Assembly: GCA_017507805.1 (NCBI GenBank)
Contig: JAFWAC010000032.1
Span: 36,825-100,824 of the forward strand
Length of the DNA: 64,000 nt
Direction: 5' to 3'
DNA from: Clostridia bacterium
Lineage (GTDB): Bacteria; Bacillota; Clostridia; Oscillospirales; Acutalibacteraceae
The translations under genes and the position numbers were made by a program. The notes beneath the pieces were generated by a model. It had not been told where the DNA came from, ran no database searches, and was given only the letters and a program-made list of their open reading frames with translations. Each line of letters starts with the position of its first letter. Within the stretch, counting starts at the first letter, position 1. Of the stretch, positions 6,680-63,767 are shown piece by piece.

Positions 6680-6698
6680 AGTAAAATTTTCCTATTAT

Positions 6699-8828: not shown

Positions 8829-8854
8829 AAATTTTCCTCCCTATAGTAAATATT

Positions 8855-9616
8855 TTAAAAATGTTTTCTGTATTCTGATGGTAGATAACCTGTTACTTTT
8901 TTAAAATATTTGGAAAAATGATTGTAATCATTAAAGCCGCAAAGCTCACTGATTTTAACTAACGATAAATCACCGCTTTGTAAATAATTTTGTGCCAAAA
9001 GTATGCGTTCCTTCATTATAACATCATATATGCTGGTGTTAAGCTCCTGCTTGAAAAGATTACAGCAATAGGATGGCGACAGCGATACCTGTTCCGCTAC
9101 ATCGCGCAGTGAGATGCGTTCTGTATAATGCTCGGAAATGTATTTCAACATAATTTTTAAATGCGGATTTATGTAGTTGTTTTTAAGACGCTCCCGTAGA
9201 TATGCAATTATAAGACTTATACAAATACTTGTTTGTTCATCATAATATTGCCGCAATGGGAGAAAATGTGTTCCTCCAAATATATTCTCCAAAACATGGT
9301 ATATGTCTCTGAGCTCCGAGGTAAAACAGTTTTCGAGATAATCAGGCAAATCAATGTTACCGTCATAAAAGAAATTAAGACTGTAATAATGCGTTTGCGT
9401 GTCAGAACGCTTGAACAGAACCCGATGATCTCCGGGGCGTATCAAAATACCGTTTCCGGATGATATTGTGTAATGCTTATCGTTGATTTTATAAAAAAAT
9501 TCGCCTTTTATTACGAAAGTGAGATCGTAATAGTTGATATAATCATCCAAAGATAGCGATGGAGTTGTTTTGTAATTTCTGTGGGTGTAAAGCCTTAGCT
9601 TATAATCATTCGACAA
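8855..9616 (-). CDS. AraC-family transcriptional regulator
   Basis: 253-residue regulator with an N-terminal cupin-like sensing domain (YDLTFVIKGEFFYKIN, GNGILIRPGDHRVLF) and a C-terminal double helix-turn-helix (ISLRDVAEQVSLSPSYCCNLFKQ; ISELCGFNDYNHFSKYFKK then TGYLPSEYRK). Family members bind a sugar and recruit polymerase. Translation starts at TTG 9616, with GGGAG 7-8 bases upstream. It sits between the minus-strand GH36 unit and the plus-strand glycan locus, so it is placed to control both. The effector is not known. Confidence 0.92.
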   Translation of the reverse strand: MSNDYKLRLYTHRNYKTTPSLSLDDYINYYDLTFVIKGEFFYKINDKHYTISSGNGILIRPGDHRVLFKRSDTQTHYYSLNFFYDGNIDLPDYLENCFTSELRDIYHVLENIFGGTHFLPLRQYYDEQTSICISLIIAYLRERLKNNYINPHLKIMLKYISEHYTERISLRDVAEQVSLSPSYCCNLFKQELNTSIYDVIMKERILLAQNYLQSGDLSLVKISELCGFNDYNHFSKYFKKVTGYLPSEYRKHF

Positions 9617-9668
9617 AAAATCACTCCCGTTCCGGCATGGGCGGTTTCACCGCTTAAAGCTCAGGAGC

Positions 9669-9697
9669 ATTATAGCAAGATTTTACTTTTATGTCAA
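9669..9697 (-). promoter_or_regulatory. Consensus sigma-70-type promoter for the AraC/GH36 unit
   Basis: Reading the minus strand, TTGACA (9692-9697) and TATAAT (9669-9674) are both perfect and separated by 17 bases, 52 bases upstream of the TTG start of the regulator. It is the best promoter in the window. Confidence 0.85.
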
Positions 9698-9821
9698 GCA
9701 TTATAATATAGTTTTGAAAATGATTTTTAGTGTATTTTTTGCGTAAAATCATTAATTTATAAGAAAAATTTACACTTCAAATATTGTAAATAGATAAATT
9801 TTACCCCTAATTCCAATATTT

Positions 9822-9852
9822 CACTAAAATTTAACAAAATGTCGTTTTAGTG
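9822..9852. promoter_or_regulatory. Dyad CACTAAAA-N15-TTTTAGTG, candidate operator
   Basis: An 8-bp inverted repeat (9822-9829 and 9845-9852) in the AT-rich 467-base divergent region between the AraC gene and the plus-strand locus. No ORF covers it. Its centre-to-centre spacing is about two helical turns, as expected for a dimeric regulator site, but AraC-type sites are usually direct repeats, so the bound factor is unknown. Confidence 0.35.
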
Positions 9853-9906
9853 GCAAGAAATCGTAAGATTACACTAATATGGCGCATTTTGCATAAGATT
9901 ATTCGA

Positions 9907-9936
9907 TTGACAAAAACCTATATAATACATTACAAT
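9907..9936 (+). promoter_or_regulatory. Candidate promoter of the large glycan locus
   Basis: TTGACA (9907-9912), an 18-base spacer and TACAAT (9931-9936), about 150 bases before the first gene of the locus. A TATAAT also occurs at 9921 but has no usable -35. The long leader after it shows no riboswitch that I recognise. Confidence 0.5.
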
Positions 9937-10083
9937 TTTAATGTAGGAAATTATCGATGAGTAAGGCTGAAAAAACTCCTAAATTCCGATTTTTACAAAT
10001 GTTCAGGTTTTCAAAATAAATTTAAAGGGAGTGATAGGTTTTAATTTCTCAGCAACTCTAAATTAAGAAAGGAAGAATTATCT

Positions 10084-13000: not shown

Positions 13001-14181
13001 ATTATACAACCGATGTCCTTGGTGTTGATATTCCTATCGGCTTTGACGGTTTTGTATTTGTTCCTTATAAGAATTTCTATAACAGAACACAAAACGGAAA
13101 GCCTGTAGTTGATATTTCTGCCGAACACAATTTAGAGCTTTGGTTCTGGGGTACTAACACTGCAACAGATGGTGTTTATAAATGGCAGAATGTTGATGCG
13201 TTGATTGATGATGTCAGCTATTATTCTGTTGCTGATGCAGATGCCGGTCTTACCGATGTTGACGTCTGGAACGCAATGAAAAGCTTAGGCTATGATATTA
13301 TGAAGGCTCAACAGCCTGCTTCCTATTCCATTCCTCTCGATTTCGAGGGCTTTGAAGCTCCGTTTAATAAGGTTACCTCTTGGTATAGCAAGGGAACAGA
13401 CGGTAATTACGGTCAGTATTATACAAAATATGATTTTGTTGGCGGAGAATCTGCGCTTTCCGGTAAGGCTTCCTTGAAGGTAACTGCCGGCGCAAGTGAT
13501 GCTTATAATGCAGAAGGCAGAAACTTTATAAGAGCTGAAACCACACAGGCTGTATTTAACGGTATTCCTTCGCTTGACAAAGAAACGCTTTCACTTGCCA
13601 ACACGAATTTTGCTTATATTACTATGCGTGTTAAGGTGCCCTTTGGCGGAGACGGCTATAGCTTCCAGCTTTTCTTAAATCAGACAGGTGTTACTCAAAA
13701 CGGTATGTGTGCTACACACGGCTATACTGCCGAGGGTGTTTATACTCAGTTCGTTACCGATGACGGTGTGACAACATTGCCCTCAGGCTTTGACGGTACT
13801 ATCTATATTCCGGTAGCAAACGCAACCGCAAGAACTGAGCTTACCGATGAAAGCGGTAATAAATATCGTCCTACCTATAGAAAGAGCGCTGAGTATATGG
13901 TTGACCTTACACAGCAATTTAAGCTTTCTATAAATCTTCAGGATACCGATTGGGAAGGAAAGTCACTTATCATAGATGATATAACTCTTGAAATTGACGG
14001 TGTAATGGGCGATATCAACGGTGACGGTTCAGCAAACGGTGCTGATTTGGTAATTGTTTCAAATCATATTTTAGGTATTGACAGAAGCTACGGTGTTGCT
14101 TGTGATATTACAGGCGAGGGTGCTGTTAATATTATTGATCTTATCCGTTTGAAGAAAATTATTGCGAACATTGCCTCATAA
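10084..14181 (+). CDS. Secreted GH29-like protein with four beta-sandwich repeats and a dockerin
   Basis: 1365-residue exported protein. The signal peptide is residues 1-30 (ends VPAQA). Residues ~35-350 form an alpha-L-fucosidase (GH29)-like barrel with GWWIDSCY carrying the expected nucleophile Asp (~202), but the usual His-His pair is replaced by TLTQSNGFYC. Four ~240-residue repeats start near residues 358, 599, 841 and 1082, each with a xxGFDGxxxxP strand and a terminal IDD motif, and resemble carbohydrate-binding beta-sandwiches. The C-terminus (1307-1365) is a type I dockerin with GDINGDGSANGADL and CDITGEGAVNIIDL. It opens the glycan locus, with GGAAG before its ATG. Fucosidase activity is inferred. 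Confidence 0.85.
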   Translation: MKQTIKKLLTLALSLAIVLSAMVFAVPAQAISQDTATDFMAGNYGIFMHYLPSGDAKTDLEAWNEQVASFNVDTVAMQAHEAGAKWVTITLTQSNGFYCIPMDDEAIVEAFGGNYGVDAENDLVLKLYEALSEYGIKLMLYWIPGAPSGEDEVAVSIATSLGATEKASDGNYVLNDTTVEKMSTVMEVVSRRYGDMVAGWWIDSCYERVGFSEDYANLEAAALRAGNPDAVIAFNSGISGDKPEDVRYACESYAAGEICNYGNLDTVSIYDYSATGRWTPKGYQKHYLTFLGENWGDSNAERYDTNELVAHVTENLLKKGCALSLDVGCGTNGTFDPEQLNQVVAINTAMNSNPELGFDFENGQNLMGVVSNVYEGKDHYSNDSAYVQLSTEDEALNGKASLKILPSEGNSRTDILVAHSYLTEGAPNRLNIKGNTDFSKSDFTNLSGIMMRVKIENDTATSNHSIGFYLSQTGLSHLTVLGNKMVLYNADGSKFNVYDKALPAGFDGFVFIPFKNAHSIHEFEPGKAYSNYTNNPDVMVDFAKDYKLDIRLNSSNWNGATVLIDDVNYYYGENDADAWNTMRALGYDITQAEQPEVYSFPLNGENLWKPIPSTMLIAKTVTTGGVAGWPKYNNLPSILTNDPDEVLNGNVSMKISVDINSFNWTGLNSIAALKVTTDPFTVAGVEALSTEKIKSAASNKYAYLKLRIKIPATNSALSFYPIIEQNGNRFVIEENILAYNADGSVNSSVILNSGGPVSLPSGFDGYLYAPIYSIKAADFNDYTYTPTGSPVYQSDATAPDLDQNFELRFQFSTSSTTGDLNVANIYFDDIDVVYGTGTDLPYNFDDFSKTTPTVYGQVTKTWGYPPINNISYLTSENALNGQASIKVDIQNLYKSENSSYYYYNAVKFANVPAVTDDGIAGVMYRLKLENDTNTETHRMYLVLTQSEMAETCVGGNAIKLYDAEGNALVKGTDYTTDVLGVDIPIGFDGFVFVPYKNFYNRTQNGKPVVDISAEHNLELWFWGTNTATDGVYKWQNVDALIDDVSYYSVADADAGLTDVDVWNAMKSLGYDIMKAQQPASYSIPLDFEGFEAPFNKVTSWYSKGTDGNYGQYYTKYDFVGGESALSGKASLKVTAGASDAYNAEGRNFIRAETTQAVFNGIPSLDKETLSLANTNFAYITMRVKVPFGGDGYSFQLFLNQTGVTQNGMCATHGYTAEGVYTQFVTDDGVTTLPSGFDGTIYIPVANATARTELTDESGNKYRPTYRKSAEYMVDLTQQFKLSINLQDTDWEGKSLIIDDITLEIDGVMGDINGDGSANGADLVIVSNHILGIDRSYGVACDITGEGAVNIIDLIRLKKIIANIAS

Positions 14182-43066: not shown

Positions 43067-44239
43067 ATGAAAATTTTATTTGCAGCCGATATGTGCTTTA
43101 ACCGATTCGAAAATTTGCCATCAAAATCTTTATTACATAGCTATTTTAATTCTGTTAAGCCTGTTTTTGAAACAACAGATTTCAGTATGCTTAATTTGGA
43201 ATGTGTCCTGTATGACGGTGACAATACCCCAATAATTAAAAGCGGTCCTGCGCTAAAAGCAGAAAGTGGATTTGTGGAAGCCTTAAGCTTTCTAAATGTG
43301 GATGTTGCAGGTCTTGCTAATAATCACACGGGCGATTATCGGGATGAAGCCATTTTTGATACCATAAACCTGCTTGCAAAAAATAATATTGCTTCAATCG
43401 GTGCAGGAGAGAATATAACACAGGCATATCTACCTTATGTTTTCGAAAAGGACGGTATTAAGGTTGCTGTGCTTGCAATTTGTGAAAACGAGTTTGGTGT
43501 TGCTGATAATGATAGGGCAGGGGTTGCAGGATTTAACCTTGTTCGCACTGCGAAAGCTATAAGAGAAGCTAAAGAAAGCGCAGATAGGGTAGTGGTATTC
43601 TTTCATGGCGGAAATGAAAATAACCCCTTTCCATCACCGGGAAAAACCGAATTATATCGCTATATAATCGATTTGGGCGCTGACGCATTTATTGGTATGC
43701 ACACTCACTGTCCACAAGGCTATGAAATTTATAACGGCAAGCCTATAGTTTATAGTATGGGTAACTTTTATTTTCCTGTAAAGGCTGAAGGTGCACGTGC
43801 CGATTTAAACAATAATTGGTATTTCGGTTATATGACAGAGCTTGATATAACTAAGGAGCAAATTAAAATAAATGTTCATCCATACCATTTTGGCAGTCTT
43901 GAAAATCCGACTATGGAGTTGTTGTCGGGCGACCGAAAAGAAAGCTTTATGAAATATCTTAACGATATTTCTGTTCCTATCTCCGATGCTGAGCAAATTA
44001 AGCATTTGTTTAATATTTGGTGTACTACCAGGGGCATCACCTATTCTGCTATGCTCAAATATTCTCATGATATGGAAAAGAACGGCGCTTCACTTTGCTG
44101 TCACATGAAAAACGATTTCAGTTGTGAAGCTCACAACGAGCTTGTAAGAAATACGCTTGATATGTGTTACTTTGATACGATTGAAAGATATTCTGCTTTG
44201 CAGGATGAAATCAATCAATATTGCGTTATAAAGCTTTAG
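43067..44239 (+). CDS. CapA-like metallophosphatase-fold protein
   Basis: 390-residue protein of the poly-gamma-glutamate capsule CapA family (calcineurin-like fold). Motifs are LFAADMCFNRFENL, the metal-binding SMLNLECVLYDGDN, VAGLANNHTGDYRDEA, FFHGGNENNPFPSPG and IGMHTHCPQGYE. CapA proteins in sugar loci are not necessarily capsule enzymes and may be hydrolases of unknown substrate. ATG 43067 is chosen; GTG 43058 would overlap the previous stop. No signal peptide or membrane helix is seen, unlike classic CapA, so a cytosolic role is likely. Last gene of the locus. Confidence 0.82.
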   Translation: MKILFAADMCFNRFENLPSKSLLHSYFNSVKPVFETTDFSMLNLECVLYDGDNTPIIKSGPALKAESGFVEALSFLNVDVAGLANNHTGDYRDEAIFDTINLLAKNNIASIGAGENITQAYLPYVFEKDGIKVAVLAICENEFGVADNDRAGVAGFNLVRTAKAIREAKESADRVVVFFHGGNENNPFPSPGKTELYRYIIDLGADAFIGMHTHCPQGYEIYNGKPIVYSMGNFYFPVKAEGARADLNNNWYFGYMTELDITKEQIKINVHPYHFGSLENPTMELLSGDRKESFMKYLNDISVPISDAEQIKHLFNIWCTTRGITYSAMLKYSHDMEKNGASLCCHMKNDFSCEAHNELVRNTLDMCYFDTIERYSALQDEINQYCVIKL

Positions 44240-44264
44240 CTATTACTCTACAATCATTATAACA

Positions 44265-44297
44265 AACCCCGATGTCTTTTTAAATGACATCGGGGTT
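44265..44297. terminator. Stem-loop at the convergent end of the glycan locus
   Basis: Arms AACCCCGATGTC and GACATCGGGGTT with a 9-base loop, between the convergent CapA-like and SDR genes. The T-tract is weak on both strands, but the stem is strong and the position fits a shared terminator. Confidence 0.75.
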
Positions 44298-44317
44298 GAC
44301 TAATATATGGTAGTGTT

Positions 44318-45052
44318 TTAAATCACAAATCCGCCGTTAATTCCTAATACTTGACCGGTTATGTAATCTGCTTTATCAGAAGCTAAAAATTCAATTGCGG
44401 CGGCGATTTCGTCTGCACTGCCCATACGACCTAAAGGAATTGTGCTGACAAAATCACTAAGCTCCTCAACCGTAAGATTAGAATTCATACTCGTTTCAAT
44501 AAGTCCGGGAGCAATGGCATTAACGGTTATACCGCTTGGAGCTAATTCCTTTGCTAACGCCTTTGTCAAACCAATAACACCTGCTTTGGCGGCGGAGTAA
44601 GCCACCTCACAGGAGGCACCAACCTGACCCCACATAGATGAAATATTGATTATTTTACCTGCCTGACGGCTAACCATTGAGGGAATAACAGATTTACAAC
44701 AGTTGAAAACTCCCTTTAGATTTACATCCATTATTCTGTCGAAATCTATTTCATCAGTATCGGTAATAAGCTCCTGATGTGCAATTCCCGCATTATTTAC
44801 AAGAATATCCAAGGAACCGAATTTGTAAAGGGTTTCTTTAACCATAAGCTCAACCTCAAGGCGATTGGCAACATTTGCCTTTTGAGTAATTACAGAGTAG
44901 CCGTTATCGGTTAAGGATTTGCAGAGTAGGGAAGCGGACTCGTATGAGTTGTTATAATTTATAACTACATTGTATCCCTTTTGCGCAAACAGAATTGCCG
45001 TTGCCGCACCGATTCCTTTCGAGGAACCTGTAATAAGAACAGTTTTTTTCAT
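44318..45052 (-). CDS. SDR-family oxidoreductase (FabG-like)
   Basis: 244-residue short-chain dehydrogenase with the NAD(P) motif TGSSKGIGAATAI, the NNAG structural motif (LVNNAGIAHQE), the catalytic Ser and Tyr-xxx-Lys in INISSMWG and VAYSAAKAGVIGL, and PGLIETSM. Start at 45052 is supported by GGAGAG 9 bases upstream; a longer start at 45106 has no such site. It is a single gene transcribed towards the glycan locus. It may be a 3-oxoacyl-ACP reductase or a sugar/alcohol dehydrogenase, and the context does not decide which. Confidence 0.88.
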   Translation of the reverse strand: MKKTVLITGSSKGIGAATAILFAQKGYNVVINYNNSYESASLLCKSLTDNGYSVITQKANVANRLEVELMVKETLYKFGSLDILVNNAGIAHQELITDTDEIDFDRIMDVNLKGVFNCCKSVIPSMVSRQAGKIINISSMWGQVGASCEVAYSAAKAGVIGLTKALAKELAPSGITVNAIAPGLIETSMNSNLTVEELSDFVSTIPLGRMGSADEIAAAIEFLASDKADYITGQVLGINGGFVI

Positions 45053-45136
45053 ATTAAGTCTCTCCGTGTAAAAAATCTTTTTTATTAGTATAACATATAT
45101 AGACAAAAAATTAAAGTATTATTTTACAATAAATTG

Positions 45137-45344
45137 GGTTGACATAAAAACAACATCGGCACATATAGTATGGTTTACATAATAGGTTTACATAATATTT
45201 AGGGTGAACAAAAATAATAGTTGACATAACTTTTGAAATGTTGTATAACTATATTACAGCTTAGTTCTATCTTGCTTTTGATAAGCCTTGCTTCAGTATT
45301 TTGGGGCGGCTGATTTTTTTCGCTATAAGAGTTAGTTTACATAA
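45137..45344 (+). repeat. Five copies of a GTTTACATAA-type repeat in a 411-base gene-free region
   Basis: The motif (A/G)GTT(T/G)ACATAA occurs at 45137-45147, 45172-45182, 45185-45195, 45219-45229 and 45334-45344, all in the same direction. It equals the XerD-binding half of Firmicutes dif sites, and two copies include the TTGACA -35 of predicted promoters. It lies directly upstream of the SpoIIM/Xer operon. No gene or RNA family that I recognise is in the rest of the region (45053-45463). Confidence 0.7.
45221..45249 (+). promoter_or_regulatory. Promoter of the SpoIIM/Xer unit
   Basis: TTGACA (45221-45226), 17-base spacer, TATAAC (45244-45249), about 215 bases before SpoIIM. The -35 lies inside the fourth GTTGACATAA repeat, so any factor binding the repeat would compete with polymerase. 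A second, weaker candidate begins with TTGACA at 45139. Confidence 0.6.
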
Positions 45345-45463
45345 CATCGTGTAAAATTCCATATTTTGTGTGATAGAAATATAATATCACTAAATATAGA
45401 AATAGTTTTCAGGAATATCTTGTCCTTTTTTTGCATAGTATTACTTGAACGGAGTGATGTTAA

Positions 45464-46096
45464 ATGCAAAAGGGAAAAGTAGTTAATTTAAGAAGCTGTA
45501 ATAAAATATTTGAATTTGCTGTTAAAAACAATTTCTTGATTTTGTTGACAACGGTTTTTATTATCGGTCTTTGTATCGGTGTGTTTACCTTCGGAAAGTA
45601 TGAGACTGTCTCGCTGTTTTCTGATTGGTATATTGAGGATATGATAAGTGAAAGGTCAAATGACGGATTTTTAAATATTGTTTTAAATTCTTTTATTGGT
45701 TCTGCAATGCTTCTTTTGCTTGTTTTCATATGCGGCTCGTCTTTTATGGGGGTTTTGTTAATTCCTTTGTTTGTGGGTCTTAAAAGCTTTTTACACGGCA
45801 GTATTGCCGCAATGCTTTATTCGGTTTATTCTTTAAAGGGAATTGCCTTTCATGCGGTTATAATTTTACCTGCTTCAATCATCGTTACAGTGGTATTGCT
45901 TATCTCAGCTAAAGAGGCTATGCGTTTTTCGGTTTTGCTGGCGCGTGTCACATTGCCGCAATCGGCACCGATAAATATTTCGTTAGAGTTTAAGGGATAT
46001 TGTGTAAAATTTTTAATTATTTCTGTCTTCGTTTTACTTTCGGCAGTTGTTGATGCCATAATATCTTGTAATTTTTTAAACAGCTTTACGCTGTGA
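45464..46096 (+). CDS. spoIIM: Stage II sporulation protein M-like membrane protein
   Basis: 210-residue integral membrane protein with about five helices, of the SpoIIM family. SpoIIM acts with SpoIIP and SpoIID in thinning septal peptidoglycan during engulfment of the forespore. The characteristic core ILNSFIGSAMLLLLVFICG...SSFMGVLLIPLFVGLKSFLHGS and the His/Gly-rich middle are present. ACGGAG precedes the ATG by 9 bases. Its stop almost overlaps a Xer recombinase gene, an arrangement common in sporulating Clostridia. Confidence 0.87.
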   Translation: MQKGKVVNLRSCNKIFEFAVKNNFLILLTTVFIIGLCIGVFTFGKYETVSLFSDWYIEDMISERSNDGFLNIVLNSFIGSAMLLLLVFICGSSFMGVLLIPLFVGLKSFLHGSIAAMLYSVYSLKGIAFHAVIILPASIIVTVVLLISAKEAMRFSVLLARVTLPQSAPINISLEFKGYCVKFLIISVFVLLSAVVDAIISCNFLNSFTL

Positions 46097-46116
46097 TTTT
46101 TTGTAGGGGGTGCAGT

Positions 46117-47004
46117 ATGAAGAATTATATAGATATTTTTAAAACCTATCTTGTTGAAACAAAAAAAGCTTCTCGTAATACTGTGGAATCCTACATTCGC
46201 GATATAGAGCAATTTTCAGCTTATTGTGTTGGAATTAAAATAACAGATTTAAGTGTTATCGACACAAATGCCTTAAACGGCTATTTAGAGTATCTTTCTG
46301 TTATAGGTAAGTCGGATGCCACTAAAACACGAATTGTCGCTTCCTTGCGCTCTTATTACCGTTTCTTGATAAGTCAGGGTATAGTCCGTAAAAATCCGGT
46401 TGACGGTATTAAAATTAAAAAAGCACAGAAAAAGCTTCCCGGAATTTTGACCTCAAATGAAATCGTACTCTTGCTTGCACAACCCTCGGCAGGTGACTAT
46501 AAAAGTATCAGAGATAAAGCTATGTTGGAGCTTTTATATGCCACCGGAATTAAGGTTTCGGAGCTTATAGATTTAAAGGTAACTGATGTTAATCTGCAAA
46601 TAGGTATAATTCATTTACATACCGATAAATCGGAGCGTATAATTCCACTTTATCCTGCGGCTATTAAGAGTGTTGCAGAATATCTTGTTAATGTTAGACC
46701 TGCAATCGTTCTTGACAGTAATGAGGATAAGCTTTTCACAAATATGACCGGTCAGCATATGTCCCGTCAGGGCTTTTGGAAAATAATTAAGCATTATGCA
46801 GATACTGCCGGTATAAAAAAGGAAATCACACCTCACACCTTAAGACATTCCTTTGCGGCGCATCTTTTGGAAAACGGCGCAAAGCTAACAGATATCAAGG
46901 AGCTTTTGGGTCATTCTGACATTTCCTCAACTCAGGTCTATGCTCAGCTTATGAAAAGCAAATACACCTCTGCCTATGCAAGATTTCATCCCTTGGCAAA
47001 ATAA
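46117..47004 (+). CDS. xerD: XerD-like tyrosine recombinase with Arg-to-Lys change
   Basis: 295-residue tyrosine recombinase. Start at ATG 46117 fits AGGGGG 7 bases upstream; the earlier GTG at 46093 overlaps SpoIIM. It has an N-terminal SAM-like domain (LVETKKASRNTVESYIRDIE) and a catalytic domain with TPHTLRHSFAAHLL, LLGHSDISSTQVYAQL (nucleophile Tyr). The first catalytic Arg is a Lys: LYATGIKVSELIDL (codon AAG) where XerD has GLRVSEL. The family resolves chromosome dimers at dif. Whether this copy is fully active is uncertain. Terminator follows. Confidence 0.88.
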   Translation: MKNYIDIFKTYLVETKKASRNTVESYIRDIEQFSAYCVGIKITDLSVIDTNALNGYLEYLSVIGKSDATKTRIVASLRSYYRFLISQGIVRKNPVDGIKIKKAQKKLPGILTSNEIVLLLAQPSAGDYKSIRDKAMLELLYATGIKVSELIDLKVTDVNLQIGIIHLHTDKSERIIPLYPAAIKSVAEYLVNVRPAIVLDSNEDKLFTNMTGQHMSRQGFWKIIKHYADTAGIKKEITPHTLRHSFAAHLLENGAKLTDIKELLGHSDISSTQVYAQLMKSKYTSAYARFHPLAK

Positions 47005-47042
47005 AAATACGACTAACTCTACTCATACGAGTAGGGCGGCAA

Positions 47043-47092
47043 AAAAACGGACACATCATGCGAGTATTATCCAATATGATGTGTCCGTTTTT
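47043..47092. terminator. Bidirectional terminator
   Basis: Arms ACGGACACATCAT (47047-47059) and ATGATGTGTCCGT (47076-47088), preceded by seven A and followed by TTTTT, between the convergent Xer and glycosidase genes. Confidence 0.9.
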
Positions 47093-47096
47093 GTAA

Positions 47097-48317
47097 TTAA
47101 ATTAAAATTCTTTTTAAAGCAATATATGGTAAAACGCCCGAAGTGCCGTATTTAAGACCGCTAAAATTAGTTGTGTTTTCATTTATCCATTCAAACGGAG
47201 CACCGATTTTTTCATAATTTTTAGTGTGATTTTCAAAATCTCTTAAAAGGCTAAATGCCAAATTTTTATCTTGAAGTGAAATGGCATAAGCATACCAACC
47301 CGTTGGGGTTGCCCAATAACCTCCGTTTTGATAGGTATTATATTCCAAAATAGTAGATTCCCAAGCGGTGTTTTCTGCAAAATCATCGGTTGTCAGAATG
47401 TGGCGAACATAACCGTCCACAACGGCAGTTTTGTCCTCATAAGCTTTTTTTAGTGCTTTAATTATTTTTGGAGCTGCACTTATTCCCGAATATACCGCGT
47501 AAGCGGTTGCCCATATATCGTGCTGCTTACATAAACCGGTCGCAGAATAGAACCATCCGCTGTTTTCATCATAAAAAACTTCTAATATACTGTTTTTGAT
47601 TTTTTCTGCCTCAGTCTTATAGAAGTTCTGTTTTTGGGGAATATTTTCGAATAGCATTTCTAAAGTTTTTGAAGCGTTGTATCTTAGAATTGATGCCATT
47701 AATAATTCACCGCTTTTTTTAATTGCATCAACAAAACCCCAATCAACTGTAAATTTTTCTTTTTCACTTAAACAGAGAGCGCTTTCAGCATCAATATTAT
47801 AACCCACAAAGGTATGTTCAAGAATTTCAGCTAATGTTAAACCGCGGTAAATATTTTGAAGAATTGATTTGTCACCGCTTTGTTCAATATAAAATCCTAC
47901 CATCATAATGAAATAATAGTTATCGCAGAAAGGCGGATAAATTCCATAGGTACCGTCACCTTGATTTTTCCCTGATTCATAAGTACCCGGATAAAAAACG
48001 GGATTACCATCGTAGTTAATGTGATCAGCAACAGCATAGGGTGGAACTATAAGGTTATTTTCAAGATACAAGGTCTCTTTTCCGTTTTGCCCACATAAAG
48101 CTATAATTTCAATGTAGGATTTTAAAATACTATCGGGTATTAATCCACTTTCAGCCATCATAGCACAATCTCTAACCCAAAAGCTTATATATTTTTCATC
48201 ACCCGAAGGCAATAATAACGGCATAACCTTTTCCTTACCAAAATAGCTGACACGTTTTTCAAAAGTGCAATCGGCAATAGTTTTTATCGCCAGATCCCTC
48301 AAAAATTTTAAATCCAT
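47097..48317 (-). CDS. Six-hairpin glycosidase-like protein
   Basis: 406-residue cytosolic (alpha/alpha)6-barrel protein related to GH63/trehalase/MGH-type enzymes. Visible are FWVRDCAMMAESGL, GIYPPFCDNYYFIMMV, DWGFVDAIKKSGELL, IWATAYAVYSG, NTAWESTILEYN and the substrate-groove stretch NGGYWATPTGWYAYAI. Acidic residues are in the right places for a hydrolase, but the specificity is unknown. A longer form from GTG 48329 is possible; ATG 48317 has GGTGAC before it. It stands alone between terminators, so it is not clearly part of the main glycan locus. Confidence 0.72.
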   Translation of the reverse strand: MDLKFLRDLAIKTIADCTFEKRVSYFGKEKVMPLLLPSGDEKYISFWVRDCAMMAESGLIPDSILKSYIEIIALCGQNGKETLYLENNLIVPPYAVADHINYDGNPVFYPGTYESGKNQGDGTYGIYPPFCDNYYFIMMVGFYIEQSGDKSILQNIYRGLTLAEILEHTFVGYNIDAESALCLSEKEKFTVDWGFVDAIKKSGELLMASILRYNASKTLEMLFENIPQKQNFYKTEAEKIKNSILEVFYDENSGWFYSATGLCKQHDIWATAYAVYSGISAAPKIIKALKKAYEDKTAVVDGYVRHILTTDDFAENTAWESTILEYNTYQNGGYWATPTGWYAYAISLQDKNLAFSLLRDFENHTKNYEKIGAPFEWINENTTNFSGLKYGTSGVLPYIALKRILI

Positions 48318-58439: not shown

Positions 58440-59768
58440 TTATAAACCTTTAGCTTTAAGATTGCTCACTAAGCTTACATAAAATTCTCTGACATCAAAT
58501 CCGTTAATATTTTCTCTGTTTAAATCGATTATATCGCCGTGTGAAATACCGCGTTTTTTAATTGGTCTTAATAAAGTATATTTTTCTCCCCATTTAAAAG
58601 ATTTTTCGTTCACAAGACCGTCATTTTCACCGCTAAAATGCTTAACTAAGTGATATGAAAAGTTTAAGGGAAATTTTCCGCCTTTTGCCTTAGCCATTAC
58701 TGACCCCACACTTTGACAGTAAACTTCTTGCGGTGTTATTAATTCGGAATTCAGCCGATTACAATAAGCTACGGTCAAATCATTGACCGCCGCAAGAAAA
58801 TCCGGGTTTGCTTCACCAAATTTTTTCACTGTTGAATTATATGTTTTTGCCACTTTGTTTTTAACCTCAGAAGGTATTTTAGTTAGTAGGTAATCAGCAA
58901 ATAAACAACCCCTATGCGGTGTGTTTATTGTTGTAAGTGATGCAACACGCTTGGCGACACCGAGCTTTGAAATTGCACAACGACAATCTAATCCACCCTT
59001 TGAGTGAGCGATAATATTCACCTTATCCACTCCGTTTTTCTCTGTTATTTCTTCAATGCGCATTTTAAGATATGCGGCACTATCAGCAATCGAAGCAGCA
59101 GACGGGTGATTGCCATAGAAAATGGTAGCACCGTTTGTTTCTAATTCTTTCGGAATTCTACCCCAATAGTTGAAAAAACGCGTATCACGAAAAAACACAC
59201 CGTGTACCATAAGAATAGGGTACTTTGTGGCACAAAGTTTTTTATTTTTTCTTTGAATGTTTATTTGTTCCTTTTTGGCTTCGAAGCGACATTCACTCAC
59301 AGTTGTTTTTATTATGAAAAATAAGGCAACTAAATTCGCAATTGGTATCATACCGCAAATTATGCCCATAAGCCTTATTTTAATTCCCAACTGTGTAGAT
59401 GTTAGATATACGCAAATTATTCCGTTCCAAAATACAATAAAACTAACACAAAGACATAGAATTAGGCTCCAAATAAAAGTTATGTAATTATTAGATGGAG
59501 TTTTAAATGCAAGTGCTACTTGATAGATAGTAGAAAATATTATTGATATACCAAAAGAACATAATAGGGTAGAGCCGTGATAGCAAATCTTTAGCTTTTT
59601 ATTATGTGTTTTTATTGTGAAAATTCCTGCGAACAGATTTAAAAAAAGAAAAATCGGCACTATAACAAAAAGGTATTGTGGAAAATCTTTGATAAAAACA
59701 AAGCAATTAGCAATAAAACTCACTATAAATGCTTCTGCAAATATTGTAAAAATAAACATTATTTTCAC
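58440..59768 (-). CDS. Membrane-bound alpha/beta hydrolase (lipase-like)
   Basis: 442-residue protein with about five N-terminal membrane helices (residues ~1-165) and a C-terminal lipase-like alpha/beta hydrolase: oxyanion motif PILMVHGVFFRD, nucleophile elbow NIIAHSKGGLDCR, TINTPHRGC, and late Asp and His in GENDGLVNEKSF and ISHGDIIDLN. The domain resembles triacylglycerol lipases of the LipA/LipB type, but with a membrane-embedded first half. AAAAGGTG precedes the ATG. Probably an ester hydrolase at the membrane; substrate unknown. Confidence 0.8.
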   Translation of the reverse strand: MKIMFIFTIFAEAFIVSFIANCFVFIKDFPQYLFVIVPIFLFLNLFAGIFTIKTHNKKLKICYHGSTLLCSFGISIIFSTIYQVALAFKTPSNNYITFIWSLILCLCVSFIVFWNGIICVYLTSTQLGIKIRLMGIICGMIPIANLVALFFIIKTTVSECRFEAKKEQINIQRKNKKLCATKYPILMVHGVFFRDTRFFNYWGRIPKELETNGATIFYGNHPSAASIADSAAYLKMRIEEITEKNGVDKVNIIAHSKGGLDCRCAISKLGVAKRVASLTTINTPHRGCLFADYLLTKIPSEVKNKVAKTYNSTVKKFGEANPDFLAAVNDLTVAYCNRLNSELITPQEVYCQSVGSVMAKAKGGKFPLNFSYHLVKHFSGENDGLVNEKSFKWGEKYTLLRPIKKRGISHGDIIDLNRENINGFDVREFYVSLVSNLKAKGL

Positions 59769-60193
59769 CTTTTATAATATGGAATAATCGATTTTCTGAT
59801 ATTAACTCCCTTATATGTATATATATAATTGCTCGCTTGAGTTTTTGAAATAGGGAAGTTGAATGTTGACATAAAGTAAATAAGGCTGCCGAAATAATTT
59901 TGCGAACATTTCGACAGCCTGTTAAACACCACCTGGCAGTAAATATATAGCAAAATTATTATATCGCACAAACCAAATTACTGCAAGCAAAATTTACAAA
60001 GAACAGTAATTTGTTTATGATGAGAATAAAAATTATAATGTAGCAAGAAAGCGAAACTATATTTGTGGGGAAAAGTACAAAATCCTTAAACATTTTAAAA
60101 ATCCGATTAATGATAATAATTCCACTTTATCAGAACAATAATTAGTTGATACTAATCATAAAAGGGAATTCAGACCCTTAAAAATTTTATTAC
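59769..60193. other. Gene-free AT-rich stretch left of the nested element
   Basis: No convincing gene. It holds an imperfect stem-loop (AGGCTGCCGAAAT 59883-59895 with ATTTCGACAGCCT 59908-59920). Its last part, minus strand 60193-60156, codes for the original tail of the interrupted rep gene (see 62044-63108). The left boundary of the outer element should lie within this stretch, but I cannot place it. Confidence 0.5.
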
Positions 60194-60208
60194 GAATTGT
60201 ACTAAATG
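60194..60208 (+). repeat. Left att-like direct repeat
   Basis: GAATTGTACTAAATG, identical to 62113-62127. On the minus strand it encodes HLVQF of the interrupted rep gene. Confidence 0.8.
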
Positions 60209-60231
60209 TTCCGAGGTTTAGTGTCTATTCG
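60199..60231 (+). repeat. Left arm of an inverted end repeat
   Basis: GTACTAAATG, 8 bases, TTTAGTG, one base, CTATTCG. The same words recur in inverted orientation at 62023-62050 with a 4-base gap. ACTAAA and TTTAGT form a short dyad of the kind a tyrosine recombinase binds. Confidence 0.65.
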
Positions 60232-60262
60232 CCACTTGTTTGCACAGACTTACAGACAAGAA

Positions 60263-60294
60263 AAAACCGCCCCAAATGGGACGGTTTTCTTTTT
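60263..60294 (+). terminator. Terminator near the left end of the element
   Basis: AAAACCGCCCC and GGGACGGTTTT with an AAAT loop and a T-run. No plus-strand gene lies upstream in the integrated form, but in an excised circle it would come ~230 bases after the recombinase gene. Confidence 0.75.
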
Positions 60295-60298
60295 GACA

Positions 60299-60356
60299 CC
60301 GACAGCGCGTTATCAAGTAGTCAGCTTATAGAAACGCGTGGTCTAATGGCTGTCGG
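60299..60356 (+). other. Compound hairpin, candidate Rep origin
   Basis: Outer arms CCGACAGC (60299-60306) and GCTGTCGG (60349-60356) enclose inner arms CGCGTT (60306-60311) and AACGCG (60333-60338). Such nested hairpins upstream of rep are typical places for the Rep nick site. The function is inferred. Confidence 0.5.
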
Positions 60357-60410
60357 CTGAAAGACCAAGTCTCTCGCCACTGTTGACTATTCTAACAGAG
60401 GTGAGACCAA

Positions 60411-60584
60411 ATGTCAAGTATGAAATTTTTTTGCACCGATTGCCCGCATTACATTCCCAACAACGGCTACGGTCAAGAGCTTTGCGGTGTGGGTGAAAAC
60501 TTTGTTATTCTGAATGACGAGCCGAAGCCTTTTGTGACAATTCCTCCGCTGAATTGTCCGCACCGTGCGCAACTTTACGAGTGA
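60411..60584 (+). CDS. 57-residue Cys-rich protein of the element
   Basis: Short gene with a good AGAGGTGAG site 6 bases before ATG 60411. The product has CTDCPHYIP at the N-terminus, LCGVGENFVIL in the middle and LNCPHRAQLYE at the end, i.e. four or five Cys in CxxC-Px...CPH arrangement, suggesting one small zinc-binding fold. It lies 58 bases before the rep gene on the same strand and probably belongs to the same transcript. Possible roles are Rep accessory or copy-number control; I know no family for it. Confidence 0.7.
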   Translation: MSSMKFFCTDCPHYIPNNGYGQELCGVGENFVILNDEPKPFVTIPPLNCPHRAQLYE

Positions 60585-60642
60585 GCGCAACAGCCCAAGT
60601 CTTGAGCCACTGCTCCCGCCTTGAGGCGGGCGGGGGGTGGTG

Positions 60643-61410
60643 ATGGAAACCAAAGCAATGCAATCCCCGCGCGGAACGCGCGAGCTTGAAAAATGGACGG
60701 TTGAACAGCTTAAAAAATTCGGCTATGATGTGACCGAGCCTCACAAGCCCGAAAAGGAAAAAATCGGGCGGTTTTCAAGCTCCCTTAGCAGAAGCCGGCA
60801 GCGCGTTTTTGAAATCGCAATGTGCAACGAGTTTCACTTTTTCTGCACATTCACGCAGGATGAAAAACTGCGCGACCGCTTTGACCTTGGGGAGTTCCGA
60901 AAGGACTTTGCAATGCTCGTCCGTAATCTCAATCGGAATAGGGCAGAGGGCGAGAAAATTAAATACTTGCTCATTCCCGAAAAGCATAAAAATGGGGCTT
61001 GGCACATGCACGGACTTTTAATGGGCTTGACCGTGGCAGATTTGCGCCCTTTTACCCTTGATGAAAAACTGCCCGAGCGCATACGCGAGAAGCTTCGGAA
61101 AGGTGAAAAAATCTTTGATTGGAGCGCATATCGGACACGCTTCGGGTATTTCACTTGCACCGAAATTCAAAGCTCGGTCGGGTGCGCGAAATATATCACA
61201 AAATACATCACGAAGGATATGGAAAAGGATGTGCGCGAAGCGGGGCAACACCTCTTTTTTGCAAGCCAAGGATTGAAGCACCGTGAGCCGATTGTGACAA
61301 AGTGCTTCGACAAATGCCCGATTACGGATTGGGATTTTTCAAACAAGTATGTGATGACAAAAGATATTGAAATGCCCCGTCCTGAAAATGGGACGGAAAA
61401 ATCGAGTTGA
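60643..61410 (+). CDS. HUH-type rolling-circle replication initiator (Rep)
   Basis: 255-residue Rep. Motifs in order: FHFFCTFTQ (motif I), HUH metal-binding WHMHGLLMG (His ~121/123), and YITKYITKDM with the nicking Tyr (~184 or 188). An N-terminal basic Ser/Arg-rich stretch precedes them. The enzyme nicks one strand at the origin and stays linked to the 5' end. The start is GTG 60637/60640 or ATG 60643, just after a CCCGCC/GGCGGG hairpin and a G-run that could mask initiation. Similar Reps occur in small ssDNA phages and their satellites; no capsid gene is present. Confidence 0.87.
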   Translation: METKAMQSPRGTRELEKWTVEQLKKFGYDVTEPHKPEKEKIGRFSSSLSRSRQRVFEIAMCNEFHFFCTFTQDEKLRDRFDLGEFRKDFAMLVRNLNRNRAEGEKIKYLLIPEKHKNGAWHMHGLLMGLTVADLRPFTLDEKLPERIREKLRKGEKIFDWSAYRTRFGYFTCTEIQSSVGCAKYITKYITKDMEKDVREAGQHLFFASQGLKHREPIVTKCFDKCPITDWDFSNKYVMTKDIEMPRPENGTEKSS

Positions 61411-61442
61411 CAATTTTAGGAAAGGTAACAAGGTGAATAAAT

Positions 61443-61955
61443 ATGCGTAGTGAATGGATACCAAAGGGCGAGATTGAACATATACTCGCGTCATTAAATC
61501 CCGCAAATAGGTTAGTTTGTGAGGTCAGTTTGGCAACGGGTTTGCGCGTTTCCGATGTGCTTGCACTCAAGACAGAGCAAATCCGAAAAGAACGCTTTAC
61601 GGTGAGGGAGCAAAAAACGGGAAAATGCCGTACTGTGAGGTTGCCAGAAGCTTTGCGTGAGAGGTGCTTGTTGTGCTGTGGGACAGTGTATGTTTTTCAA
61701 GGCAGATTAAACGGCAGAAAACCGCGAACACGGCAAGCTGTTTTCAAGGATTTAAGGCGCGCCCGCGAACGCTTCAATATCAAAGCTAATCTAAGCTTGC
61801 ACAGCCTGAGAAAAGCATACGCTGTTGAGGAATACCGCAGAAGTGGGCGCGACCTGAAACGGGTGCAAAAATTGCTCAATCACGATAGCGAAGCTGTGAC
61901 TTTGCTTTATGCAATGGCAGACGAATTAACCCGCCGAAAAAAGTTCAAGGCTTGA
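61443..61955 (+). CDS. Minimal tyrosine recombinase (integrase)
   Basis: 170 residues that cover only the catalytic domain; the usual N-terminal DNA-binding domain is absent. All active-site residues are present: Arg35 in GLRVSDVL, Lys ~58/61 in REQKTGKCR, His120/Arg123 in LHSLRKAY, His147 in LLNHDSEA and Tyr156 in LLYAMAD. AGGTGA lies before ATG 61443. It is 32 bases after rep, in the same direction, so one operon. It should insert and excise the element at the GTACTAAATG sites. The single-domain form is unusual. Confidence 0.88.
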   Translation: MRSEWIPKGEIEHILASLNPANRLVCEVSLATGLRVSDVLALKTEQIRKERFTVREQKTGKCRTVRLPEALRERCLLCCGTVYVFQGRLNGRKPRTRQAVFKDLRRARERFNIKANLSLHSLRKAYAVEEYRRSGRDLKRVQKLLNHDSEAVTLLYAMADELTRRKKFKA

Positions 61956-62022
61956 CAATGGAAAAAAGGTGTGCTAAAATGAACTCGTTTAGACCGCAAA
62001 AATGTGATTTGGGGGTTCGTAC

Positions 62023-62050
62023 CGAATAGCACTAAACGCGCATTTAGTAC
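62023..62050 (-). repeat. Right arm of the inverted end repeat
   Basis: Reverse complement reads GTACTAAATG, CGCG, TTTAGTG, CTATTCG, matching the left arm at 60199-60231 except for the spacer. Located ~65 bases inside the right direct repeat and just after the recombinase gene. Confidence 0.65.
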
Positions 62051-63108
62051 CCCGCGAGGGGCTTGTAATTCACAGACGGCAAGTAGGGGCTTGCCGTTAA
62101 TTTCGGGACTGTGAATTGTACTAAATGAATACCGGTGTCAATTTGAGAACGCAGGAAGCAGAGGAACGCCGCCCACTCAACAGCCTCTTGAGCCTTATGA
62201 ATATTAGATATATCGTAAGGCGAAACTACAAATTCACCAAAACCGGTGCAAGCTTCTAAAAATGCCGCATAAACATTCTTACTCTGAACGAGAGTGTCAA
62301 AAACATTTTGAGCATAGGATTTACAACGATATTCCAATCGCCACCAATAATCAGGGTCACCCATAGCATTAAGAATAGCTTCAGCAACAGATGACTCGTG
62401 ACGCTCGTTAATTTCTACACGCTTATTGTAAAGCTGTAAAGTGCCTTTAGTAGAATTTCTACCTCCTACAGTAACATTGTAAGTAATATCATCAATAACA
62501 TCATCATATACATTGTCGACCTTAACCCATTGCCGATACTTGCCATCTGGACGCTTACGGATTAAACCACAGTTTAAATCAATCAAAGCATTTTCACGGT
62601 CATAAGCAGTAGCAGCGAAAGTGTGTATCATTGGAACTATCTGATTTTCCTTATCTAAAATATCACAGGCTAAGTCAATACGGCTACACTGAGGATTAAA
62701 TATAGAAATAGCATCAAGAAAATCACAAAAAGCATTATCGTGAAGCGAATTAATAAAACGGCAACCGTCACCGGAAATAGAAACAAGGATACCGTAAAGC
62801 TCACCACGCTTACCGCTGGGAGTATTTATTATCTTACCTTTTTCATCGGTATTATAAGCTAAAACAATAGAGGAAAAACCAACCTTTGGTATATGGTATC
62901 CGCATTTATAGAAACAGACACCACCACCAGGGCGCGGCTCAAAATCAGAAAGCTCCAATTCAGGAAGCTTATTAATAATAGCAAGAATTAACATGCCAAT
63001 ATCATCACAATCAAGACGGACATTAAGCCAATCGACAGTAAAAGAGTAATCAGAGGGCGAAAAGCCCTGGCGAACATCATAATCCGCGCGAGTTAAACTA
63101 ACATTCAT
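62044..63108 (-). CDS. Replication initiation factor (Rep_trans-type) with element-swapped tail
   Basis: 354-residue initiator of a second rolling-circle element. Motifs resemble the replication initiation factor family of filamentous phages and conjugative elements: VDWLNVRLDCDDIG, GILVSISGDGCRFI, SRIDLACDILDKE, GTLQLYNKRVEINER, WWRLEYRCKSYAQNVFD. ATG 63108 has AGGGGTG upstream. The last 22 residues after HLVQF come from the inserted element; in the left flank the same HLVQF continues as VIKIFKGLNSLL to a stop at 60156-60158, which is taken as the original end. Confidence 0.85.
   Translation of the reverse strand: MNVSLTRADYDVRQGFSPSDYSFTVDWLNVRLDCDDIGMLILAIINKLPELELSDFEPRPGGGVCFYKCGYHIPKVGFSSIVLAYNTDEKGKIINTPSGKRGELYGILVSISGDGCRFINSLHDNAFCDFLDAISIFNPQCSRIDLACDILDKENQIVPMIHTFAATAYDRENALIDLNCGLIRKRPDGKYRQWVKVDNVYDDVIDDITYNVTVGGRNSTKGTLQLYNKRVEINERHESSVAEAILNAMGDPDYWWRLEYRCKSYAQNVFDTLVQSKNVYAAFLEACTGFGEFVVSPYDISNIHKAQEAVEWAAFLCFLRSQIDTGIHLVQFTVPKLTASPYLPSVNYKPLAGY
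62067..62117. other. Two-level hairpin at the right end
   Basis: Outer arms AATTCACAG and CTGTGAATT enclose ACGGCAAG and CTTGCCGT (loop TAGGGG). It abuts the right direct repeat, so a folded single strand would present the att sequence at its base. It lies inside the new 3' end of the rep gene on the minus strand. Confidence 0.6.
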
Positions 63109-63130
63109 AATTGCACCCCTACAATATAAA

Positions 63131-63262
63131 TTAGTTGAAATAAAATAAACGCTTGAATAAACCAAAAAAAGAAAGCCAAATACAATAAAAAGGAAGAACT
63201 ATAGCAGCACCAATAGAAAAACGTTCAAAAAAATTATAAAAAAACTTATGATATTTTTCCAT
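63131..63262 (-). CDS. 43-residue single-span membrane protein
   Basis: Small gene between the promoter at 63.3 kb and rep. The protein starts MEKYHKFFYNFFERF, then has one strongly hydrophobic helix (IGAAIVLPFYCIWLSFFGLF) and a basic end KRLFYFN. TTGGAG lies 9 bases before ATG 63262. It is read in the same direction as rep, 22 bases upstream. Single-span proteins of this size are typical of filamentous-phage-like elements, but a coat protein role cannot be claimed because there is no signal peptide cleavage site. Confidence 0.65.
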   Translation of the reverse strand: MEKYHKFFYNFFERFSIGAAIVLPFYCIWLSFFGLFKRLFYFN

Positions 63263-63297
63263 AATATTGCACTCCAAAAATATAAATTTACAAGATT

Positions 63298-63326
63298 ATA
63301 ATAAACCCAAAAAAGCCAAAAGTCAA
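63298..63326 (-). promoter_or_regulatory. Promoter for the 43-residue gene and rep
   Basis: Minus strand TTGACT (63321-63326), 17-base spacer, TATTAT (63298-63303), directly after a terminator. It starts a separate transcript for the rep end of the outer element. Confidence 0.65.
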
Positions 63327-63340
63327 GTAAAAAAACGGAA

Positions 63341-63367
63341 GCCTGTAGGTGATACCTCTCTACAGGC
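63341..63367 (-). terminator. Terminator inside the outer element
   Basis: GCCTGTAG and CTACAGGC with an 11-base loop; on the minus strand TTCCGTTTTTTT follows. It ends transcripts from the 92-residue gene side. Confidence 0.82.
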
Positions 63368-63413
63368 GCGTAAAACCGAAACTTTTCAGCTGTCAATTTA
63401 CAAAAAAGCGAGC

Positions 63414-63433
63414 AATCAGAGCGAGCTCTGATT
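63414..63433. other. Short perfect hairpin, candidate origin
   Basis: AATCAGAG-CGAG-CTCTGATT in the ~120-base gene-free stretch between the 92-residue gene and the terminator. Possible replication-origin or packaging signal of the outer element; not tested. Confidence 0.4.
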
Positions 63434-63488
63434 ACACGCAAAAGGCAAATAAGAGGAGGGGGTAGGAAGGATGCGAAGCTTACCGGAA

Positions 63489-63767
63489 CTATTTAAGTAT
63501 ATACTTACGTATATTCGATAATGTCAGACCCTCGGGGAACGGCTGATACAGAACCTCTGAGCCTGCGACACGCTCTGAGCAAGTGCGCACTGTACTTGGG
63601 AAGCTTGTACCACGCGCCGAGACTTTGAAATTTAAGCAGCACAAACGGAATTTTTCATCAGGAGCTGTTTCCAGGAGATTAAAAAGGCAGTGATATATAA
63701 AATCCTCTGGATAAGGCTGTTCAAAGATACTGCTACCATCAGCGCGTATTATGTAATATTTTTTCAT
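63489..63767 (-). CDS. 92-residue hypothetical protein of the outer element
   Basis: Protein of 92 residues that I do not recognise, with the start MKKYYIIRADGSSIFEQP after AGAGGTATTT at a normal distance. No membrane helix or signal peptide. Two Cys in FRLCCLNF and one in VRTCSERV. It follows the 45-residue membrane protein gene by 32 bases, with a stem-loop between them. Its place in a minus-strand array ending in rep suggests an element gene, perhaps a small single-stranded DNA-binding or control protein; that is a guess. Confidence 0.6.
   Translation of the reverse strand: MKKYYIIRADGSSIFEQPYPEDFIYHCLFNLLETAPDEKFRLCCLNFKVSARGTSFPSTVRTCSERVAGSEVLYQPFPEGLTLSNIRKYILK

Follow-up and report, generated by a model that had tools for sequence, protein, structure and literature searches.

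A probable inovirus satellite with its own minimal tyrosine recombinase at a probable dif site of a Clostridia bacterium

We analyzed a 64,000-nucleotide stretch of Clostridia bacterium DNA (contig JAFWAC010000032.1; the whole stretch is hereafter "the window") and focused on a small unit, at positions 60194–62127, that carries a replication initiator (Rep) and a very short tyrosine recombinase. The 1919-bp unit is probably an integrated inovirus satellite: it occupies what appears to be a host dif site, adjoins a probable inovirus in the manner of TLCphi of Vibrio cholerae, and has a minimal recombinase of its own. Four lines of evidence bear on this reading: the unit's content and relatives, its target, the fold of its ends, and the phages that it adjoins.

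The Rep–Xer unit and its relatives

The unit is bounded by two exact copies of a 15-base direct repeat, GAATTGTACTAAATG, spaced 1919 bases apart (Table 1). No further exact copy is present across the whole assembly (2.34 Mb in 36 contigs, 87.6% complete), and the window ends where the contig does. The G+C fraction climbs from about 0.29 outside to 0.45–0.51 within the unit. Because 8 of 1000 sequences simulated from positions 59500–63500 by a first-order Markov model also had a 15-mer repeat at a distance of 1.5–2.5 kb, the repeat taken by itself is suggestive; the relatives described below are what make the element's ends secure.

Three intact open reading frames (ORFs) lie between the repeats, which we term cores. 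The first encodes a Cys-rich protein that matched no family better than E 0.9 in family profile searches; this gene is not general, as comparable small ORFs were recognized by eye in L006, L022 and an element of a different type, L085. The second encodes a two-tyrosine Rep, in which the HMH motif (residues 121–123) and Y184/Y188 are invariant in all six aligned sequences. The third encodes a recombinase of 170 residues (mini-Xer). Six of its residues, R35, K58, H120, R123, H147 and Y156, are invariant in 9 of 9 aligned mini-Xers at identities down to 32%; we take them to be catalytic from knowledge of the family. The mini-Xer frame has no upstream extension, and no core-binding domain accompanies the PF00589 stretch. 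A structure model (predicted local distance difference test score, 85; predicted template-modeling score, 0.83) has the size and the helix–strand order of a catalytic domain, and the nearest solved relatives by profile are 4a8e ("probable tyrosine recombinase XerC-like"), 5hxy (XerA), 2a3v (IntI4) and XerD entries. Since simple tyrosine recombinases usually comprise a core-binding and a catalytic domain (PMC8138268, excerpts), mini-Xer is the shorter protein and falls outside that class. Profile searches of the unit's three proteins revealed no Zot/pI, coat or secretion gene and no relaxase family match at E values up to 1.

Searches with the Rep, which overlap one another and count the window's own genome, yielded matches in 7 of 198 relatives (E 1e-3), in 19 of 394 genomes from the same order and in 2 of 398 from the same phylum (E 1e-10), at four loci in general genome contigs, and at two, then five, loci in viral contigs. 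With tblastn, the Rep matched 32 phage and 25 plasmid records, all at less than 60% identity and none covering 80% of its length. Forty-four stretches were annotated by profile. Rep stands next to a short Xer at 16 distinct loci, 15 in bacterial genomes and one in a phage contig: the window, L006, L007, L008, L010, L022, L024, L025, L028, L086, L088, L089 and L092–L095 (L058 and L077 are the L010 contig, L033 is its end and L023 is the L006 locus; none was counted separately). Matching cores flank the unit in 15 of the 16; in L092, the left side of which is cut by a contig end, only the right core is present, and the left end of L025 was found on another contig, L162. Where measurable, the units span about 1.8–3.7 kb. 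Judged from these comparisons, the Rep–Xer unit is a mobile unit.

Much of the initial annotation of this DNA is upheld by these data. It had placed three small genes (Cys-rich protein, HUH Rep and recombinase) between exact 15-base repeats, and the coordinates were confirmed; it had described a recombinase with all active-site residues and no DNA-binding domain, and the six presumed residues are indeed present in a protein covered by PF00589 over residues 5–160 of 170. An integrative element with a rolling-circle-type Rep is supported, Rep–recombinase pairs do occur elsewhere, empty sites exist (see below), and the reported lack of a capsid or relaxase gene holds for the three proteins. Three features had escaped the initial annotation: the strong hairpin that terminates in the right repeat, the match of the repeat to half of a dif-like site, and, on the right, a replication gene belonging to a probable inovirus.

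Other Rep relatives have different companions. By eye, a full-length integrase neighbors Rep in L080, L081 and L084, and a large serine recombinase does so in L082 and L083; several kinds of small Rep–recombinase elements are thus found in this order. An alignment of mini-Xers detected 17 loci in viral contigs, one being the L010 contig; Rep was present in none of the eight others that were annotated. Sigma-70 region 4 proteins lie between mini-Xer and the hairpin in L006 (11200–11646) and L022 (9172–9678). In L094, 93- and 273-base direct repeats with att-like arms give positions 6976–13330 the look of a cassette array, the second unit of which (about 10.7–13.1 kb) has no Rep or Xer match.

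The probable dif target and the putative attachment hairpin

In most loci, the right core is followed by an inverted arm and a GAGGGGA-like motif, the whole forming an 11-N(about 6)-11 palindrome. The arm and motif are absent in the window and L010, the arm is imperfect in L022, and the motif is poor in L007 and L008. The palindrome AATTATACAAAATGAATATTTTGTATAATT and its variants (11-N6-11) were found in 27 of 61 genomes of the genus and are single in 25; a reversed control gave none. G034 and G049 have two copies each, at the two ends of their element. Inspection by eye showed 23 of the 27 sites to be empty, lacking a hairpin within 45 bases on their left; G022, G034 and G049 are occupied, and G060 has a solo hairpin. 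The G060 site is the empty counterpart of the L006 locus: both are neighbored by SpoIVB peptidase and polysaccharide-biosynthesis genes. Window positions 60180–60207 are identical to the G042 site (L103) and its left flank at 27 of 28 positions, 14 of them in the core.

Genomic position also points to dif. In G058, 10-kb bins show positive GC skew in 8 of the 10 that precede the site and negative skew in all 10 that start from it, accompanied by a switch of the coding strand. In both L085 and L086, a full-length gene begins at the site and has strong XerC/XerD/XerA/XerS matches that fall below the curated cut-offs, an arrangement like that of xerS-difSL, a linked recombinase–site module (PMC5357621, excerpts). 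The target is very probably the host dif, i.e., the chromosome-dimer-resolution site, and by sequence the element sits at it, with the left half alone present in the window. A random target within the inovirus rep gene was considered and rejected: the left flank resembles a dif flank.

Within the window, cumulative G–C reaches its maximum at 47 kb, at a distance of 13 kb from the element. Around this point (44000–48000), which probably marks the replication terminus region, both GC skew and coding strand switch. The gene neighbors to the left of the window's site had no protein match among 33 loci, compared mostly over 1.5 kb of flank. Solo att hairpins to the left of a core or dif-like site, resembling scars left by lost elements, were seen in L006 (8391–8535), L024 (near 6599–6715) and L161 (near 5190–5272).

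A further occupant of such a site was encountered in L085 (G442:C7:423500-443400), where three identical 2,906-bp tandem units lie at a dif-like site beside the full-length Xer gene. Each unit encodes Rep, an HTH-like protein, a Cys-rich protein and two 96-residue ORFs, with no recombinase among the listed ORFs. Host Xer may therefore be responsible for part or all of the recombination, and it is conceivable that it alone integrates and excises such elements at dif, as it does for TLCphi, with mini-Xer serving as an accessory or a directionality factor, or persisting as a relic. The use of host Xer by TLCphi and CTXphi (PMC4246890 and PMC3089051, excerpts) and the want of a recombinase in the inoviruses of L008, L010 and L086 speak for this explanation, whereas the invariance of the six presumed catalytic residues and the adjacency of the mini-Xer gene to rep in 16 loci speak against it. 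We consider it a serious contender that falls somewhat short of even. The reading that we prefer, a satellite on which its own recombinase would act, leaves room for host Xer as a partner.

The right end of the element forms a hairpin. Positions 62030–62137 fold with −23.9 kcal/mol (z −4.2), and none of 200 shuffles folded as well. Joining the right end to the left one adds an outer stem that bridges the joint; in the window, a forked hairpin is then built from two inverted dif-like sites. The junction fold was evaluated for the 13 elements with mapped ends (the window, L006, L007, L008, L022, L024, L028, L086, L088, L093–L095 and G049; L089 was also folded and left out because it is of the same genus as L088). 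The mean gain was −7.1 kcal/mol with an element's own ends vs. −2.4 with swapped ends; when the 13 were re-paired at random, none of 20,000 trials matched the own-end gain, and a fraction of 0.265 of the swapped pairs did as well or better. This test of all 13 replaced an earlier comparison of seven elements with six, which had been chosen after the folds were seen (0.017 vs. 0.54). Of the 13 left ends, an element's own is the one that pairs best in seven cases, namely the window, L006, L022, L024, L028, L088 and, weakly (−3.9), L086; it ranks second in G049, the right end of which prefers the left end of L024 (−12.1 vs. −7.5).

Covariation is consistent with this structure. Among five elements of the genus, two-sided changes occur in 10 of 35 pairs and pairing is kept in 161 of 173 cells; the corresponding maxima were 8 and 153 in 500 shuffles, and 4 and 75 in slid versions, the latter comparison being biased because the structure was derived from the alignment on which it was tested. 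Within the outer stem (15 pairs), compensatory change affects 6 pairs and pairing holds in 68 of 73 cells; 1 and 0 of 500 shuffles, respectively, did as well. The att alignments themselves are imperfect: that of seven rows is poor, and in that of five rows part of G049 is misplaced.

Rather than an attachment structure, the hairpin might be a packaging signal, a single-strand origin or part of a regulatory RNA that only the circle would yield. A promoter-like motif (61952–61980) precedes it, in the same arrangement in L006, L022, L024 and L025; in the circle this motif points to the terminator-like hairpin at the left end (comparable ones were seen by eye in L006, L022, L024 and G049), and in the window it is antisense to the neighbor's Rep_trans gene. 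Within the hairpin, nonetheless, lie the core and a pair of inverted dif-like sites, a plan shared with CTXphi, and both functions may coexist; a role in place of attachment seems to us unlikely. Attachment stays our preferred function for the hairpin. Farther from the joint, the putative replication origin (60299–60356) has counterparts recognized by eye: GGTCTAA recurs in L006 and G049 and GGTCTCAA stands in L022, with stems that are altered yet still pair, and L024 differs here.

The inovirus neighbors

Three relatives join the element to an inovirus. In L086, a core (592) is followed by a 6.6-kb inovirus, a core (7181), a 1939-bp element and a core (9120) with the dif right arm. L008 has the same order: core (2195), 7.5-kb inovirus, core (9708), 1860-bp element, core (11568). 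The L010 contig (11,033 bp), circular by a 127-base end overlap, comprises an inovirus of about 9.2 kb and an element of about 1.8 kb; its two cores have three mismatches between them. A tandem array in a chromosome could assemble into the same circle. Each of the three inoviruses has a Zot gene above the PF05707 cut-off, and the Rep_trans genes of L008 and L086 exceed that of PF02486 by a wide margin. None of the three showed an Xer by profile or a recombinase by eye. The L008 inovirus contains a YafQ-type toxin gene (PF15738; 2465–2948) and a small partner ORF without a Pfam match.

In the window, the right-hand neighbor is probably an inovirus cut by the contig end. Its Rep_trans-type gene, the 3' end of which passes through the right core into the element, encodes a product that scores 27.3 bits against PF02486 (E 3.3e-06; cut-off, 29.6) and is 28% identical to a Rep_trans-like protein of L026. 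The adjacent 92-residue ORF is 62.5% identical over 48 residues to L026 5808–5951, which adjoins the L026 Rep_trans gene in the same order, and upstream in L026 are a small membrane protein and an ATPase in an inovirus-like arrangement. A Rep_trans query of the viral contigs gave seven candidate stretches, none of which was confirmed.

The link to a helper is one of genomic association, seen in three joints and, probably, in the window. One alternative is an integrated rolling-circle plasmid or integrative mobilizable element (IME) that merely shares the dif target with inoviruses; this origin would account for the 12 of 16 loci in which the fetched stretch has no Zot, coat or Rep_trans match. 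It would also suit the plasmid records with Rep relatives (21 of 25 are from Staphylococcus, and those listed are small) and the fact that dif accepts such elements as LME-1 (PMC9765430, excerpts). It fits poorly with the circular L010 contig, in which inovirus and element are joined by two cores; with the Xer-less Rep relatives on stretches with Zot-like genes (L027, L076, L078, L079, L091 and L097); and with the lack of a relaxase match, which also separates the unit from IMEs that encode one. We regard this origin as rather improbable and continue to favor a phage satellite.

Far less probable still is that the Rep–Xer module is simply a part of the inovirus genome. It does follow the inovirus Rep_trans gene on the same strand in L008, L010 and L086; however, it has its own pair of cores there, it is oppositely oriented in the window, and the same 12 loci lack an inovirus match. 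The idea of a fixed inovirus part was rejected on the cores and the orientation.

Table 1. Features of the element and its right-hand neighbor (window coordinates)
Feature	Position	Strand	Basis
Left core (attL), left half of probable host dif	60194..60208	+	Exact repeat; G042 flank match
Left-end arm GTTTAGTGTCTATTCG, partner of 62023–62037 in the joined (circular) form	60216..60231	+	Folding
Terminator-like hairpin followed by T-rich run	60263..60289	+	Sequence and fold
Putative origin structure: CCGACAGC/GCTGTCGG stem around second hairpin and GGTCTAA	60299..60356	+	By eye
Cys-rich protein, 57 aa	60411..60584	+	ORF
HUH (two-tyrosine) replication initiator Rep	60637..61410	+	PF23343 REP_ORF2-G2P, E 2.2e-11
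Catalytic-domain-only tyrosine recombinase (mini-Xer), 170 aa	61443..61955	+	PF00589, E 3.1e-20, residues 5–160
Putative promoter-like TTGACA-N17-TAAAAT, toward and through the att hairpin	61952..61980	+	By eye
First dif-like site of the forked hairpin, CGAATAGCACTAAAC-GCG-CATTTAGTAC	62023..62050	+	Alignment and folding
att hairpin with small side hairpin	62041..62127	+	Fold, covariation
Right core (attR)	62113..62127	+	Exact repeat
Neighbor: Rep_trans-type initiator of probable inovirus, not part of element	62044..63108	-	PF02486
Neighbor: 92-aa ORF of same probable inovirus	63489..63767	-	L026 homology

A probable satellite and its place among known systems

What can be read in the DNA comprises the ends, the single-copy palindromic target with its empty sites, the inovirus joints in relatives, and the hairpin with its junction pairing. 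From these we infer a course for the rest: the action of the target as dif, replication, excision, the recombinase and strand form used, and packaging. Rep would nick near 60299–60356, and the excised circle would replicate by the rolling-circle mode, releasing the coding (+) strand. In that strand, the right-end dif-like site would pair with the inverted one across the joined ends to give the forked hairpin. Mini-Xer, perhaps together with host Xer, would recombine the folded site or its duplex version with dif, leaving a core at both ends. Because the element has no coat or secretion genes, the coat must come from a helper, and exit from the cell would take place in virions of the neighboring inovirus, alone or as a co-molecule.

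Several results weigh against this reading. Regarding the target, the intact palindrome is absent in 34 of 61 genomes of the genus, including the window's own, and the right half of dif has no good match anywhere in the window's assembly. G205 and G258 lack a sharp GC-skew switch and the G040 contig ends, leaving G058 as the one clear case of four. Regarding the fold, the own left end ranks fourth in L093, ninth in L094 and L007, and 13th in L095 and L008; 5 of the 13 elements have no junction-spanning pairing, and the fold is therefore not general. Of the elements joined to an inovirus, L008 lacks the fold and L086 gains only −3.9 kcal/mol. Of seven elements, five have a more stable fold in the + strand than in the − strand, the window and L028 being the exceptions. 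Regarding the helper, Zot, coat or Rep_trans profile matches occur in just 4 of the 16 loci (Rep_trans alone in the window), and hits of the Zot, coat and sigma profiles in L026, L008, L010, L011, L006 and L022 arise by construction, as the profiles were built partly from these loci. The sigma profile also had its second row in the wrong frame; the names Zot, Rep_trans and sigma were later tested independently, which weakened the inovirus claim for L026 and the window. The window's assembly contains no Zot above cut-off, and the rest of the neighbor was not found there. The inovirus nature of that neighbor rests on L026, the ATPase of which matches AAA and, weakly, a Zot-like PHROG (E 0.004), not PF05707; it is thus an inovirus only probably.

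These considerations temper three proposals of the initial annotation. Dependence on another phage is supported for the family, as a Zot-bearing inovirus adjoins the element in 3 of 16 loci, and the window's neighbor is a probable further case. The label "self-contained" is rendered doubtful by the recombinase-free L085 units and by the need for a helper's coat. The repeat as a private attachment core must be given up: it is instead half of the probable host dif, and the attachment site would be the junction-spanning forked hairpin.

RS1 of V. cholerae is a filamentous-phage satellite with its own replication module and no morphogenesis genes; it targets dif and lies beside a filamentous prophage. 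Integron cassettes are bounded on each side by a core and carry a 3'-terminal palindrome. The present element resembles such cassettes in its end cores and 3' palindrome, and IntI4 is among the solved relatives of mini-Xer; it differs in having its own Rep and recombinase and in targeting a dif-like site. TLCphi is a V. cholerae satellite of filamentous phage that targets dif by means of host XerC/XerD (PMC4246890, excerpts). Like it, our element has its own replication module, lacks morphogenesis genes (coat and secretion genes among them), very probably targets dif and adjoins a probable filamentous prophage (PMC4246890, excerpts). Unlike TLCphi, it has its own single-domain Xer, is only about 1.9 kb long and resides in Clostridia. 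The Rep types of the two also differ.

The attP of the CTXphi (+) strand contains two inverted dif-like sites about 90 bp apart in a forked hairpin of about 150 bp, and the window's element has two inverted dif-like sites in a forked hairpin as well (PMC3089051, excerpts). CTXphi differs in being a full phage that relies on host XerCD, and single-strand use by the present element is presumed. LME-1/XerL of Legionellales likewise combines a mobile element, a dif mimic and a single-recombinase dif/Xer system; the host and the element are others, and a Rep–mini-Xer pair does not figure in the excerpted description of LME-1 (PMC9765430). Integrative mobile elements exploiting Xer (IMEX) integrate at dif, as this one very probably does, and rely on host Xer without a recombinase of their own; this one encodes its own mini-Xer, whereas the L085 units would fit the pattern. 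The element is not an inovirus either, as its three proteins include neither Zot/pI nor coat proteins. We found no description of a dif satellite with its own recombinase in the literature searched, the scope of which excluded most subscription journals and bioRxiv preprints. The excerpted main text of PMC6813254 contains no occurrence of "satellite", and that of PMC10061712, on inoviruses of the gut genus Enterocloster, none of "Xer", "satellite" or "dif site".

A bolder possibility, to which we assign a low probability, is a two-part phage, in which the satellite contributes the recombinase, working on a folded single-stranded site, and the inovirus contributes the coat, the two even sharing one circle (L010). 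If so, a catalytic-domain-only recombinase would let a 2-kb satellite into dif and would serve an inovirus partner that has no recombinase.

On the satellite reading, Clostridia, too, harbor a TLCphi-like arrangement, here equipped with a minimal recombinase of its own and a folded site resembling that of CTXphi. The arrangement would offer a small test bed for the choice of DNA by a recombinase without a core-binding domain and for folded single strands as a possible substrate, and it also supplies candidates, both dif sites and satellites, for the inoviruses of Clostridia.

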